Below, piece by piece: positions 51,454 to 57,963 of a DNA stretch of 64,000 nt. Within the stretch, counting starts at the first letter, position 1, and each line of letters opens with the position of its first letter. A program made the position numbers and the translations under genes. Source of the stretch: Balneolales bacterium ANBcel1 (lineage in GTDB: Bacteria > Bacteroidota > Rhodothermia > Balneolales > Natronogracilivirgulaceae); the NCBI GenBank assembly GCA_029688905.1, contig JARULB010000003.1, positions 310,001 to 374,000 of the forward strand, read 5' to 3'. The notes beneath the pieces are model-generated. The model was not told where the DNA came from and made no database searches. It worked only from the letters and a program-made list of their open reading frames with translations.

Positions 51454-54144
51454 TCATTTGATCAGGGTGACCGGGAAGGATTTTCGGTGGTAGCCCGCTT
51501 CAGCCACAATAATGTACACCCCGCTTGCCCATCCTCCCGCATCAATTCGAAGGGAATGCACGCCCCGCTGCAATCTCCGGTTATGCAACTCTCCGATACG
51601 CCGGCCATCCACCGAGTAGGCAGAAATCCTTACCGTCTTTTCCTCCGGCAATTCAATCTGCAGCACGGTGGAGTGGTTGAATGGATTCGGGCGGGGGGCC
51701 GCCGCTTTGAAGATATGCGGTCCATCATCATACTCTCCCTCACTGCCCGTTGAAGCATTCTTTCGCCGAAATACCGCTTTGAGGGATTCGTTCTCCTCAA
51801 ACGAAAGCAGATCCAGCTGCCGCCCTGGTTCACTGTGCCCTTCCCAACCGGAAAATTCGTAGCCATCAGCGGGGTGGGCGGTCACCGTAACCGGAATTCC
51901 CTGGAAGTAGGTGCCCGACCAGGGCCAGGGATCCTCAGAAACACCCACCTCGCCGCGCTTTAATCTGATGGTATTCACGGACAGGTATCCCCCTTTTGAG
52001 TCATTGACATCCAGCTCAAGCTCCAGCATGCCACGGAGATTAAAAAATCCCAGAATATGCTCTCTTTGAGCAGCAGGCCTGTTTTCAGCAAAGGAGCGCA
52101 TCGCATCCACCTCATTTTCCCACTGAATGAGCGAGGCGGGGCCGCGCCAGCGGCGTATGTGCTCCTCAATATGCGGTTTAAGTGCTTCGTGCATTCTGTC
52201 GATTTCCCGGATCACTCGCTCGGGGGCAAAAGCGGTATTCAGCAGATCGGCAAACCGGTTGATGAACTCATTCTGAAAGTTGTCATTGCGTAATGCGCCT
52301 CGGAGCATTGCAACAGACCACTGCGGGTTTGGCCAGCCGCCGGTTCCCTGCACAGCAAAAGCAAGCGTGTTGTGGTTGGCTCGCTCATTCCTGCCAATCA
52401 CATAGTCAAAATCCAGATTAAACCCGAAATCGGTGTCATAAAGCAGCCACCGCCAGCGTCCGTCGTGGCCCATGGGTGCATCATCACGAGGCCCGTTGGT
52501 CCGCTTCCTCCAGAAATCAATATTGTTGCCGGGCCAGTCGGTGTTCCGGTAGTAGATATTTGCGATGTGGTAATCGCGAAAATTCACGATATCCATACGG
52601 TTCTCTACCTCCTGCCATACATTCGCATCATTCACGGCCCCCTCTTCCAGCAGTGTACGAAGATCCAGATATGCCCGGCGATCTGCCGTCGTTCCCTCCT
52701 TGATTTCAGCATTGCCTTCAAAAAGTACAAGATCATCGCGATTTATCTGGTACATGGATTCAAAATAACGGTGATCGAAGCGTTTGCGGATATTCTGAAT
52801 GCCCCAATACTCACCATTGATGAAAACCACTGCTGGGCGGTAATACTGGGTCTCCACGCCGGTATGCGCGATGAGTTCCTGCATCAGGGCGTCTCTGAAA
52901 AAGGTTCCATCCCAGTCGTTTCCCGAATTTCTCAACAGAAACCTTTTGTAGGTGTCTACAGGTGCATCGGGGATGAGGGGATGCTCGAACCAGGCTTTAC
53001 CGTAAGATCTTCGCGCATAGATGCGCAGCGATTTCAGGGGTCTTCCCCGGGAAGTGCCGCCGTGAATACGGACTCCGGCATCCTGAGCCAGAACGGATTT
53101 GCCGCCCGGCTCATAGAATTCAACATGCACCGGCCTTTCCCACTCCTCTGTTCGATTCCAGAAATTGCCATGGGCATAAATTCCTCTGTCATGTGAAAAA
53201 AGATGCTCTCGGTCGGTTGCAAGAGAAATTACCGGGAAACGATAACGATCTTCCAGATTGCTGCCCACAAAAAACGATCGGCTGGCTACGCCAACAGGTT
53301 CCGAATCTGGGGCTATGGTTACTGCCCTTACCACGGTTCCTTTGAAGACCTGCCCCTCCGGCTCCTTCCAGTTTTCGTTATAGGGGTGGTTCGCGTCATA
53401 ATTGTTCGTGGGTATCATGGAGATATCGTTGGGATACTCCGTCCGGTCCACAATAAGAATAGGTCCCGTGTAGAGCTTGCCGCTATTCGGACCAGGCTCG
53501 CTGCCATCGGTGGTATACCGGATTTCAGCACCTTCGGCATTGTCTGGAAGGGATAGCCGCAATTCGAACGCATCGGCATGGAAGCCACCCTCATGCGAAA
53601 AAACGGGGGGGTCCAGCATCCGCCCAACGCTTTCCGTTTCATTAGGAGCTCCAGGGGTCGGTTTCGAAAAGAACGCCCATTCATCCGTTTCACCAGGGAC
53701 CCGTCCGTAGGAGTAGTCGGTCGGTATGGCAACCGGCGGAACGGTATCAAGCCTGTTTCCATCGATATCACTGAGCCGCAGCGGCTCACCCTGGCGGTCC
53801 AGGCTGAAGTTGGCATGAAGCGGGCTTCCCGGCGAACGTCGGTCTTTTCCCGATGCCCATATCAGCATAAACTCACCGGGATAAATGGTCGTGTCGGGAA
53901 AAACCCAGCGATGATGATCCCCGGCACGGTCGGTCAATCCATACCATTGAAGCGGAACCGGTTCATCGCCAGTATTCCATAGTTCAATCCAGTCTTCGTT
54001 ATCTCCGTCTTCATCCCGTAAACCTTCGTTGTTAGAAGCGAGAATCTCGTTGATTATCACCTGGGGATGCATATTGTCTTGTGCACCAGTTCGTTCCGGA
54101 AGCAGCAGCAGGGGCAGAAGTAATAAAGTGAGAAAGCGATTCAT
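51454..54144 (-). CDS. Secreted CotH-kinase protein with lamin-tail and T9SS sorting domains
   Basis: An 896-residue exported protein. After a signal peptide (1-22) comes a lamin-tail domain (about 28-150, INEILASNNEGLRDEDGDNEDWIELWN). A chitobiase-like C-terminal fold follows (near 190-290, EIRYTTDGSEPGPNSGKLYTGPI). The CotH domain (about 300-700) carries RIHGGTSRGRPLKSLRI and the metal-site DxD, D570 and D572, in YDTDFGF. A repeat of ADGYEFSGWEGHSE type and a C-terminal sorting domain (about 815-896, PRPNPFNHSTVLQIELPE to WASGVYIIVAEAG) end it. The sorting domain suggests T9SS export. CotH in Bacillus phosphorylates spore-coat protein; its target here is unknown. Confidence 0.85.
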   Translation of the reverse strand: MNRFLTLLLLPLLLLPERTGAQDNMHPQVIINEILASNNEGLRDEDGDNEDWIELWNTGDEPVPLQWYGLTDRAGDHHRWVFPDTTIYPGEFMLIWASGKDRRSPGSPLHANFSLDRQGEPLRLSDIDGNRLDTVPPVAIPTDYSYGRVPGETDEWAFFSKPTPGAPNETESVGRMLDPPVFSHEGGFHADAFELRLSLPDNAEGAEIRYTTDGSEPGPNSGKLYTGPILIVDRTEYPNDISMIPTNNYDANHPYNENWKEPEGQVFKGTVVRAVTIAPDSEPVGVASRSFFVGSNLEDRYRFPVISLATDREHLFSHDRGIYAHGNFWNRTEEWERPVHVEFYEPGGKSVLAQDAGVRIHGGTSRGRPLKSLRIYARRSYGKAWFEHPLIPDAPVDTYKRFLLRNSGNDWDGTFFRDALMQELIAHTGVETQYYRPAVVFINGEYWGIQNIRKRFDHRYFESMYQINRDDLVLFEGNAEIKEGTTADRRAYLDLRTLLEEGAVNDANVWQEVENRMDIVNFRDYHIANIYYRNTDWPGNNIDFWRKRTNGPRDDAPMGHDGRWRWLLYDTDFGFNLDFDYVIGRNERANHNTLAFAVQGTGGWPNPQWSVAMLRGALRNDNFQNEFINRFADLLNTAFAPERVIREIDRMHEALKPHIEEHIRRWRGPASLIQWENEVDAMRSFAENRPAAQREHILGFFNLRGMLELELDVNDSKGGYLSVNTIRLKRGEVGVSEDPWPWSGTYFQGIPVTVTAHPADGYEFSGWEGHSEPGRQLDLLSFEENESLKAVFRRKNASTGSEGEYDDGPHIFKAAAPRPNPFNHSTVLQIELPEEKTVRISAYSVDGRRIGELHNRRLQRGVHSLRIDAGGWASGVYIIVAEAGYHRKSFPVTLIK

Positions 54145-54382
54145 CAGACCGTTTAATCATTCAATAATTTCAGAACAGCAGGACAGGTAAATGATAAAGG
54201 AATATCACTACATTCGTTCGGTCACACGCAATGGCAAGGAAAGTGCTGTCCCGCCGGACGCACCTCGGGCAGCCATTGTCCGGGTTCATCAGAAAAACAG
54301 ATATCCAGGGAGACCTCCGTTGACCGTATCTCTGAAACGTGCCGGAGTTGCCTCTTATTTCCGTCACGTTACCTTGCCCGGG

Positions 54383-56173
54383 TTAAATTTCTGATGCGGC
54401 AAGCTTGTTTGACACAAACACCGCAAATCGCTGCGCCTCCTTCCAGCGCTCTCTTTGAGCAGGACGTAATTCCGCCCAAAATGCGCTATCGTCTTTTTTA
54501 CTAACCGCGTTATTGAACGTTATGCCTCTGCCGATATCCAAAAAATAACTGTAATGAGGCAACTCATCGAAACCTCCAGGTTCTGATTCTGCCTCAGCCA
54601 TGCGCAATGCATCGCACCTTGCCTCCTCTACGGTCCTCCTTCTCGGACAGGGCCGGTCAAAAATCGCGGGGGTTGCAAATACGAACCCGGCAAGTTTCCG
54701 CTCTTCTTCATTGATGTCTGTTTGCATGACCGCCTCCCGCCAGGCCACAACGGCACCGGGCAACAACTCAGAATACGCTGCTTCAAGTGAAGAAGTGCGA
54801 TAGGCTTTCTTGAAAAGGTCAATATCATATTCTCTGAGCAGGAACGAGGTAAATGACCCCGAAACCGCATAGGCGACAGCGCCCGGCCGCCGGTAAAAGC
54901 CCGTAAGGGAAAACAGCTCCTTCAGATCTTCCTTCGGAATAAAAGCTTCGTTGGAAGCGACCAGCTGATCCGGCGTAAGGCGGCTTGATGAGCCCGGGGA
55001 CAGCGCCACGGCAAGCCCCTCAACCATCCCTATACTCCAGGAGGCCTTGAGGAACCGGTTGCCAAACTCACGGGCGATTACATGGACCATTTCATGCCGG
55101 AGAGTCCGATCAATGGCGCCCTTCCGAATATGCATTTGTGGAGCCCGCTGCCAGACCGGCACAAAACTTACGCGCCTGGCACCTGTGTACCGGTGCATTT
55201 GCCATTCATGCGCGTAAAGATAACTTTTAATTCGCTCGCCTTCCGGCCAATCCACCCGCAAGGTATCCACCAGCTCACGAAAATGGAACTCATGTAAATG
55301 CCCCAGAAACCCGATCTCATCATCCGTATAATGCCGCTTTGAATAATAAAGTGTAAAATGTTCGGTCTGATGCGTTCCGCCCAGTGACGTTTTGAGATAC
55401 GATGCCGTTGTAACCAGGCCGTTGCGCGGTGCCATGACATACTGGCTCCCCAGAGCGACAACAAGCAACAGGATAAGCAGCCTGAAGCGGACACCGGGTC
55501 GTCTCAAACGGGGAATCAACCAGAAAAAGCCGATCCATGTCAGGGTCAGCAATCTGTACAAAATCATGCGGTTGTCAAAGACCACCTGTTCATCATAAAT
55601 CGAACCCGGCCAGTAACCCAAAACATGATTGAAGGCATAGATTTGAGGAAAAAAGAAAAGCGTGCCGGCAAGGCCCGCTGCCAATATCAAAAAAACAGAG
55701 GCTATCGAAACCATCCGCGCATATCCTGGTGTGAGATGCCATGCGCACCTGCCGATTACGAAACCGAATGCGGCGCTAAATGGAGGAATAAAAAGCCAGA
55801 AAGCTACTCCGTCAATGGAAAAACATCCCGTAACAAGATCACCAACTACCAGTGGAAGAGAGCTGACGAACAAAAAGAAAAGGATCAATAACAGTGTCCG
55901 TGCGCGCGAACTCTCTGCGGAAGCCATCCATGCCGAAGCAAATGATCCGGCAACACCCGCCAGCATTGCCGAGTCCAAATGCAATGATCCGGCCAGCGGA
56001 ACAAACAGCAATAATGATCCAGCTGCAAGTGCGAGAGCAGAAAGAAACAGCAGACCGGAACCCGACGATTTAAAATAGTGCCTGGGAATTATCAAAAGAA
56101 ATCGTGTGTAGTTGTTGATCTGTAACAGTAAATGATGGCTGCCACATGCGAACGACTGTAAGAATGTCCGCAT
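54383..56173 (-). CDS. Polytopic membrane metallopeptidase with HExxH site
   Basis: A 596-residue protein. Seven hydrophobic helices fill roughly residues 41-246. The C-terminal domain (about 270-480) has the gluzincin pattern: H360-E361-M-V-H364 and, 20 residues on, E385 in GMVEGLA. The surrounding HFTLYYSKRH and RTLRHEMVHVIAREFG match the peptidase MA-like group. The tail (500-596) is charged. The catalytic domain's side of the membrane is not certain. It is divergent from the DsbD-like gene. It has no clear relative that I can name. Confidence 0.75.
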   Translation of the reverse strand: MRTFLQSFACGSHHLLLQINNYTRFLLIIPRHYFKSSGSGLLFLSALALAAGSLLLFVPLAGSLHLDSAMLAGVAGSFASAWMASAESSRARTLLLILFFLFVSSLPLVVGDLVTGCFSIDGVAFWLFIPPFSAAFGFVIGRCAWHLTPGYARMVSIASVFLILAAGLAGTLFFFPQIYAFNHVLGYWPGSIYDEQVVFDNRMILYRLLTLTWIGFFWLIPRLRRPGVRFRLLILLLVVALGSQYVMAPRNGLVTTASYLKTSLGGTHQTEHFTLYYSKRHYTDDEIGFLGHLHEFHFRELVDTLRVDWPEGERIKSYLYAHEWQMHRYTGARRVSFVPVWQRAPQMHIRKGAIDRTLRHEMVHVIAREFGNRFLKASWSIGMVEGLAVALSPGSSSRLTPDQLVASNEAFIPKEDLKELFSLTGFYRRPGAVAYAVSGSFTSFLLREYDIDLFKKAYRTSSLEAAYSELLPGAVVAWREAVMQTDINEEERKLAGFVFATPAIFDRPCPRRRTVEEARCDALRMAEAESEPGGFDELPHYSYFLDIGRGITFNNAVSKKDDSAFWAELRPAQRERWKEAQRFAVFVSNKLAASEI

Positions 56174-56383: not shown

Positions 56384-57328
56384 ATGCCTGTTAATCGCAC
56401 ACTTTCAGGACGAATAAATCTTCTCCGGATCCCATTACCGGCGAAGATTCTGACTGCTCTGGTGCTGTTTTTCGCAAGTTCACATACAGTCACACAAACA
56501 AACGTTGCGGCACAACAACTATCATTTGGCGCAGATCCGGATGAAAACCGTGTCGCGGTCCGTTTTATCACAAAAAAAGATCGTATTTCGGAAACGGATT
56601 CGCCGTTCTGGGTGGGACTCCACATGGATATTAAAGAGGGCTGGCATGTTTACTGGAGAAATCCGGGCGACTCCGGTCTGCCTACCCGTATCACCTGGAG
56701 TGATAGCGATGACGTTGAGCCCGGCGAAATCCACTGGCCCCTTCCTTCCAGATTTGATGAAGAGGGAATAACCACGTACGGATATTCCGACGAAGTTACC
56801 CTTCTGATTCCCGTTTCACTTTCACGGATGCCGATTACCGGAGAATCGATCGCGTTGGAAGCCAATGTCCAATGGCTGGTGTGCAAGGACATCTGCATCC
56901 CCGAATCCGCCCGGGTTCCGTTTGAAATCGGCGGACGGGGAGAACTGCAAGGGCTGGTCGATCACGGTGGAGACAGAATTTCCGGGGCTCTGTCGCTGCT
57001 GCCTCAACCCTCCGACGCCTGGTCAGCTGAGGCTTTCGTAGCAGAGCGGGAACTTACCCTGGACATCAGGCCAGAATCAGCGCCGGCAATCATGCCGAAT
57101 CCCGAAAATGTCTACTTCTATCCATACCATCAGGGTGTTATTGAGCACACGGCACCTCAGAAAGTATCTGTATCAGACGAGAAACTGACCCTAACCCTGC
57201 AGGTGTCGCGATACTACAACAGCGGTATTTCGGAGATCCGGGGAGTACTGGTAACCGGAACAAGCTGGATTGAGGGCGAAAGCCACACCGGACTTGAAAT
57301 ATCCGCAGAAATTATCCCCACATATTAA
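56384..57328 (+). CDS. DsbD/ScsB N-terminal-domain protein
   Basis: A 314-residue exported protein. A signal peptide (about 1-44, ending NVAAQQ) precedes a domain with WVGLHMDIKEGWHVYWRNPGDSGLP, RFDEEGITTYGYSDEV and WLVCKDICIPESA, the hallmark of the N-terminal region of DsbD/ScsB proteins, with C167-x3-C171. This domain passes electrons from the membrane part to periplasmic thiol proteins. The membrane and thioredoxin parts of DsbD are absent. It lies 14 bp before a redoxin gene. Confidence 0.82.
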   Translation: MPVNRTLSGRINLLRIPLPAKILTALVLFFASSHTVTQTNVAAQQLSFGADPDENRVAVRFITKKDRISETDSPFWVGLHMDIKEGWHVYWRNPGDSGLPTRITWSDSDDVEPGEIHWPLPSRFDEEGITTYGYSDEVTLLIPVSLSRMPITGESIALEANVQWLVCKDICIPESARVPFEIGGRGELQGLVDHGGDRISGALSLLPQPSDAWSAEAFVAERELTLDIRPESAPAIMPNPENVYFYPYHQGVIEHTAPQKVSVSDEKLTLTLQVSRYYNSGISEIRGVLVTGTSWIEGESHTGLEISAEIIPTY

Positions 57329-57342
57329 AACGGAGAACCATC

Positions 57343-57963
57343 ATGAAACATCCCATCATCAGTATCCTGATCGTCTCATTAACCGTATTTGCATTGCTGG
57401 GAGCGGGCAGCCTGAGCGATGGCGGTCCCACAGTTGGCGAACGCGCCCCTGACTTCACCCTCACCGATGCAGCCGGAGAAACACACTCTCTCTCCGATTA
57501 CGAAGGTCAGTTTGTTGTTTTGGAGTGGCTTAACCATGAATGCCCGTTTGTTGTCAAGCACTATGGGAGCGGAAACATGCAGATGCTGCAGGAACATTAC
57601 CGGGATCAGGGCGTCGTATGGTTTTCCATCATCTCCTCGGCACCCGGCAAACAGGGTTACATGGAACCAGACGAAGCGGTTCAGGTCACCAGCGAAAAAA
57701 ATGCCCGACCCACCGCAGTACTGCTTGACCCCGAGGGCGTCACCGGCCGGGCCTATGACGCACGCGTGACGCCACACATGTACATCATTAATCCGGATGG
57801 TGTTCTGGAGTACATGGGTGCCATTGATGATAACCCCTCCGCCAACCCCGCCGACATTGAAGGGGCTCGCAATTTCGTGAGCGAAGCCCTGGATCTCCTG
57901 CTGGATGGCGGAAGTCCGGAGGTGACAAGCCATCCCCCATACGGTTGCACTGTCAAATATTGA
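57343..57963 (+). CDS. Exported redoxin (peroxiredoxin/thioredoxin-like)
   Basis: A 206-residue protein of the redoxin/AhpC-TSA group. A hydrophobic start (about 1-25) suggests export. PDFTLTDAAGETHSLSDYEGQFVVLEWLNHECPFVVKHY sets the fold, with C67 in CPFV and no second Cys of a CxxC. VTPHMYIINPDGVLEYMGAIDDNP is the conserved back half, and the end PYGCTVKY adds C202. C67 and C202 could form a disulfide. It is co-directional with the DsbD-like gene, its likely electron donor. Confidence 0.82.
   Translation: MKHPIISILIVSLTVFALLGAGSLSDGGPTVGERAPDFTLTDAAGETHSLSDYEGQFVVLEWLNHECPFVVKHYGSGNMQMLQEHYRDQGVVWFSIISSAPGKQGYMEPDEAVQVTSEKNARPTAVLLDPEGVTGRAYDARVTPHMYIINPDGVLEYMGAIDDNPSANPADIEGARNFVSEALDLLLDGGSPEVTSHPPYGCTVKY

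Follow-up and report, generated by a model that had tools for sequence, protein, structure and literature searches.

A seven-helix membrane protein of Balneolales with a gluzincin-type zinc site, a putative peptidase of the cell envelope

Introduction

Gluzincins are thermolysin-like zinc peptidases of the Peptidase MA clan, in which an HExxH motif and a glutamate some 18-30 residues downstream are set on a zincin fold. The collagenases are secreted and are not integral to the membrane, in contrast to the protein described here. Permeases of the ABC-2 type, on the other side of the comparison made below, possess a coupling helix.

The protein is encoded in a stretch of 64,000 nucleotides from Balneolales bacterium ANBcel1, hereafter the window. 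A sequence-only reading had described a seven-helix membrane domain followed by a complete zinc site, H360-E-x-x-H364 with E385, and re-examination confirmed that the reading frame encodes seven membrane helices and then an intact gluzincin site. With a probability of roughly 0.6, we take the product to be a zinc peptidase of the envelope, located in the inner membrane and carried on an ABC-2-like platform. Below, we give the evidence for this reading together with three alternatives.

Results

Reading frame and database searches

The open reading frame (P0001, 596 aa) was found at exactly the positions noted before, 54383 to 56173 of the window, and lies on the minus strand; the sequence HEMVH at residues 360-364 and the glutamate at residue 385 were read again from the window DNA. 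The true start of the gene is probably the TTG codon at 56095 (residue 27; 56093-56095, minus strand), because homologues begin there and the confidence of the structural model is low ahead of it. In the full-length AlphaFold2 model, which was based on 19 aligned sequences and showed a mean pLDDT of 81.6, residues 1-37 were mostly of low pLDDT.

As a single sequence, the window protein gave no match in Pfam (E up to 1) and none in PDB, and the only match in NCBIfam was flagellinolysin, at E 0.076 and far below its cut-off. Foldseek comparison with PDB yielded no match at E<0.001 for either the full-length or the membrane-only model. A first scan of genome contigs for relatives of the window protein found none, and among the literature, as judged by titles, no description of the peptidase family was found. 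A characterised family of membrane proteases closely matching the protein was found neither in Pfam nor in NCBIfam nor in PDB. The earlier claim that the protein matches no named family stands for the window protein itself, but its peptidase domain has known kin, as relatives weakly touch Peptidase_MA_2 (PF13485).

Membrane domain

The membrane domain (residues 38-246; 55436-56062, minus strand) is composed of seven helices of membrane length, modelled by AlphaFold2 at residues 38-55, 66-84, 91-115, 120-147, 149-174, 201-222 and 228-246. When this part was modelled alone with 69 sequences, pLDDT was 95.1 and pTM 0.91. The charge pattern of the loops fits the positive-inside rule: the mean content of K+R over 19 rows was 2.2-3.5 in the loops 2-3, 4-5 and 6-7, and 0.05-0.8 in the loops 1-2, 3-4 and 5-6. 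Positive-inside charges of this kind suggest that the N-terminus is located inside and the peptidase domain outside the cell membrane. The loop between TM5 and TM6 (residues 176-195, PQIYAFNHVLGYWPGSIYDE; 55589-55648, minus strand) would then be an ectoloop. In the aligned sequences its residues P176, G186, G190 and D194 are nearly invariant, and the motif of the family is FNHxxGYxPGxxYDE.

The fold of the membrane model was compared with known structures by VIA-align, on which all fold assignments in this study rest. Ranks 1-21 were all permeases of the ABC-2, ABCG, TarG and Wzm (type V exporter) group, with Z from 11.1 to 6.1, a range to be read with the caution that the notes of the program give for helical bundles under about Z 13. 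These matches included NosY (Z 11.1), ABCG2 (Z 10.9), TarG (Z 6.7) and Wzm (Z 6.1) as well as ABCG25, ABCG5/G8, Pdr5 and Cdr1; a fold of another kind first appeared at Z 5.5, that of a phosphatidylinositol phosphate synthase matched along 97 residues. The match covers residues 1 to about 194 of the model, corresponding to about 34-227 of the window protein, and ends before TM7, indicating that the six-helix fold has been extended by TM7, the helix leading on to the peptidase. Foldseek gave nothing at E below 1 for the membrane model, and no ABC2_membrane family was present among the best 25 of the 35 Pfam families touched by 69 members (E up to 10). Alignment by hhalign with three groups of ABC-2 permeases taken from related genomes gave probabilities of 0.8-1.8%, and since this profile-profile link failed, we make no claim of homology to the ABC-2 permeases. 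The membrane domain is, on the model, likely to have the ABC-2 permease fold, with homology unproven.

The gene neighbourhood was surveyed at 112 loci, one of which yielded no target, leaving 111 (at least three contigs being present twice, L073/L123, L074/L122 and L085/L125; L002-L020, which partly duplicate L021-L091, were left out). No ABC ATPase-like reading frame was detected within three genes of the target at any of the 111 loci, the flanks of which differ in length, and the reading of the protein as an ABC transporter subunit within an operon was rejected on this ground. The ABC-2-like domain could instead move peptides, lipids or glycolipids with an ATPase encoded elsewhere, the peptidase processing the cargo as it emerges. 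Such a function would agree with the fold match and with the presence, in the same order, of proteins in which an ABC-2 permease is fused to an M1 peptidase (L190 and L191). We consider it unlikely, as the nearest ABC ATPase-like frames lie four to six genes away, at 10 of the 111 loci, where several belong to a full MacAB-like set, and as the TM2-TM3 loop, six residues long in the membrane model, leaves little space for a coupling helix.

Peptidase domain and zinc site

Behind the membrane domain, AlphaFold2 modelled an alpha/beta domain of about residues 257-500, within which the peptidase domain was assigned to residues 262-500 (54674-55390, minus strand) from the model, the fold comparison and the matches of relatives to Peptidase_MA_2. 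It carries the zinc-binding motif H360-E-M-V-H364 (55082-55096), the putative third ligand E385 (55019-55021), as expected from the gluzincin pattern, and Y435 (54869-54871), all on the minus strand. By its position, Y435 is a candidate counterpart of the transition-state tyrosine of M1 peptidases. The zinc site claimed by the sequence-only reading proved complete throughout the family: H360, E361, H364, E385 and G386 were kept in 113/113 aligned sequences reaching them, with three fragments that end before the site counted as gaps, and Y435 in 111/111. The order HExxH and then EG was found in all 88 reading frames covering the region (73 of them distinct, a set from which sequences lacking the pattern, being fragments, were left out), the spacing from the second histidine to the glutamate being 20 residues in 68 of the 88 and 19-27 in the rest. 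Shuffling of the protein letters produced HExxH followed by EG in 29 of 20000 cases, and with the conservation of the site this marks the reading frame as no product of chance. As neither the zinc ligands nor Y435 ever vary, the protein is likely to be an active zinc enzyme.

Among 45 diverse peptidase domains of the family, 19 touched Peptidase_MA_2 at E up to 1 (best 3.5e-7), 16 touched BSP (best 2.7e-5) and three touched Peptidase_M30 (best 0.0011). The peptidase domain of the window protein alone touched PF10460 only, at E 0.26, and not PF13485. A search of PDB with a profile of the 45 domains gave no chain at E up to 10. By VIA-align, the nearest fold was the collagenase 7wss_A (Z 15.5, rmsd 3.4, 225 aligned), followed at lower scores by lugdulysin, an M30 peptidase (Z 11.8), and by M1 aminopeptidases, none above Z 10.1. 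The zincin-fold chains of collagenases, M30 and M1 among the matches listed, with Z of 8.8-15.5, are all gluzincins, a ranking in which the absence of a family does not exclude it. These observations support the assignment of the domain as a gluzincin, with zinc binding and activity predicted. A site-2 protease (M50) was rejected, since the HExxH motif is placed about 110 residues past the last predicted membrane helix (228-246) and not within a membrane helix.

Predicted disulfide bond

Two cysteines, C117 in the TM3-TM4 ectoloop (55823-55825, minus strand) and C509 immediately after the peptidase domain (54647-54649, minus strand), were found to be conserved together, both being Cys in 107 of the 109 sequences in which both positions are readable. 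The exceptions were L072, with both replaced (Thr for C117 and Gly for C509), and one sequence of the phylum of L090, with Ser at position 117 only. In 33 of 73 relatives, the whole ectodomain holds a single Cys, so that an intramolecular partner must lie in the membrane part. Since the two residues are kept together and were once lost together, a disulfide bond between C117 and C509 is predicted.

C-terminal region

Relatives of the window protein have TPR repeats at the C-terminus, TPR_19 being detected in 17 of 25 family members and in 12 of a set of 19. From residue 505 on, 18 relatives have 230-369 aa; the window protein has 92. By alignment and tblastn, its shortened C-terminal part (residues 512-596; 54386-54640, minus strand) retains the beginning of the region and roughly its last 30 residues, and the middle, with the TPR core, is missing; the remnants were weak by tblastn (E 0.016 with L005). 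Within the TPR part of another relative (L002, 1417-3846), a run of short, near-identical repeats (TTQDS/ATQDS) was noted.

In six close relatives, metH is located between the peptidase gene and the CotH gene, and the 3' ends of metH and the peptidase gene overlap by about 42 bases. No metH is present at 54145-54382 of the window, and a full metH was found on another contig (G000 C8:114724-118269). This displacement indicates that the spot, which adjoins the shortened C-terminal end of the peptidase gene, was rearranged; an assembly fault is a possible cause of the altered 3' spot. The next gene, at 51454-54144 on the minus strand, codes for a protein of 896 aa in which LTD, CotH kinase, chitobiase-like and InlB-like repeat domains were recognised; a type IX secretion sorting tail was matched weakly, at E 6.8e-4 and below the cut-off.

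The protein might also be an envelope housekeeping factor with a mainly structural or scaffolding function, exerted by the membrane platform and the TPR region, to which proteolysis is secondary. The TPR domain of the relatives fits this proposal, and so does the conservation of the membrane residues P176, G190, D194 and R207, which equals that of the active site. It appears improbable, however, given the invariance of the zinc ligands and Y435 and the fact that the window copy keeps the peptidase while most of its TPR region is lost.

Distribution and descent

Relatives were detected in 49 of the 59 genomes of the order of the window (E up to 0.001). Of 296 genomes from the phylum of the window, all of them at least 90% complete, 105 gave one match each to a 25-sequence profile at E up to 1e-20. 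In the phylum of L090, which we infer to be Myxococcota, 136 of 146 genomes were matched (profile, E up to 1e-15), and in 134 the match was single; in a third phylum, that of L080 and L081, a single profile match was obtained in each of 16 genomes. As a single-copy family kept in nearly all genomes of these two phylum samples (136/146 and 16/16), the protein is likely to serve a basic task. In a tree of 83 rows, obtained by a short search with SH-aLRT support only, Balneolales formed one side of a branch with a support of 100, and the phylum of L090 nearly did so (two changes). This grouping fits a gene that is mostly inherited vertically.

Gene neighbourhood

The envelope redox genes that the sequence-only reading had noted next to the gene are indeed present: a DsbD_N domain protein is encoded divergently at 56384-57328 (plus strand; E 4.6e-24), and an AhpC/TSA redoxin behind it at 57343-57963 (plus strand; E 1.3e-15). 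They are not a trait of the family, for the divergent DsbD_N neighbour was found at 8 of the 111 loci, all of them close relatives of the window, and the redox neighbours were rejected as a clue to function.

A proline dehydrogenase gene lies upstream on the same strand at 30 of the 111 loci, directly at 15 and one gene further at 15. Apart from PutA adjoining L090, these neighbours are confined to one order, and proline dehydrogenase was rejected as a partner because it is bound to this lineage. A role in nutrition, in which the peptidase would degrade proline-rich or collagen-like peptides and be coupled to the breakdown of proline, has in its favor these neighbours and the collagenases as nearest fold of the peptidase domain, but is very improbable, as the window and most other lineages show no link to proline dehydrogenase, likeness to collagenases is common to gluzincins generally, and the profile of 45 domains searched against PDB detected no sequence similarity to collagenases.

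Directly upstream of the target, murA was found at 16 of the 111 loci (13 without double contigs), with gaps of -155 to 70 bases. At L135 (5688-9181), murA overlaps the peptidase gene by one base, suggesting a shared transcript; 12 further distinct loci have murA upstream. A heptosyltransferase-like gene follows directly downstream at 6 of the 111 loci, and the position of the target beside murA and a heptosyltransferase gene in one lineage is a hint of a role in building the envelope. Near the target in the phylum of L090, DUF192 genes were found, together with neighbours that we presume to be PilZ-like. Across the 111 loci, no neighbour is common to all lineages, and several are envelope genes. 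As the neighbours differ by lineage (proline dehydrogenase, murA, PilZ, DUF192, DsbD_N), no single pathway is indicated.

Discussion

As an inner-membrane peptidase of the cell envelope, the protein may work as follows. TM7 would carry the peptidase to the periplasmic side of the membrane, and the C117-C509 disulfide would tie the ectodomain at its base to the loop between TM3 and TM4, in this way holding the active site above the conserved ectoloop. The membrane domain, operating without an ATPase, would serve as an anchor and offer a surface on which substrates, membrane-bound or from the envelope, could dock, and the TPR region might recruit partners. If each residue of the zinc site plays the role that it has in gluzincins, zinc held by H360, H364 and E385 would polarise a water molecule, E361 would act as the base, and Y435 would stabilise the transition state.

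A more far-reaching version, which we put forward only tentatively, is that of an ancient and largely vertically inherited core protease of the envelope, in which an ABC-2 fold is used as an ATPase-free platform for a disulfide-locked, collagenase-like peptidase with a TPR extension. If true, it would represent a separate class of membrane protease, serving a basic task in the envelope of Myxococcota, Ignavibacteria and relatives.

Among described families, Peptidase_MA_2 is alike in the pattern HExxH...EG(L)A and is touched by 19 of the 45 member domains; it differs in that the window protein itself is unmatched and that the seven-helix ABC-2-like domain is absent from the Pfam model. The M9 collagenases (7wss_A, 7esi_A, 4ar8_B) provide the best fold match of the peptidase domain, with Z of 13.1-15.5 over 222-285 residues in most rows, whereas identity is about 10% and the search of PDB by sequence gave no match at E up to 10. 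The ABC-2 or type V permeases (NosY, ABCG2, TarG, Wzm) resemble residues 34-226, NosY (7o12_E) with Z 11.1 and an rmsd of 3.8 over 182 aligned residues; unlike these, the window family has a seventh helix, a very short TM2-TM3 loop, no detectable sequence similarity to them and no ATPase gene close by.

A parallel in domain plan is found in L190 (461-4132, minus strand) and L191 (231-3887, minus strand), in which ABC-2 permease matches are joined to a C-terminal Peptidase_M1 (PF12679 and PF01433 in one chain). Like the window protein, both combine a permease-type membrane part with a gluzincin peptidase, but they are about 1220 aa long, their ABC-2 matches fall into two separate segments (4-266 and 331-491 across both), and they show no TPR match. 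Comparison by BLASTP of these two proteins with the window protein gave nothing significant, and Peptidase_M1 was matched neither in the window protein nor among the families listed for its relatives. True fusions of ABC-2 permease and M1 peptidase thus exist in the same order, and the plan of the window protein is not a new kind.
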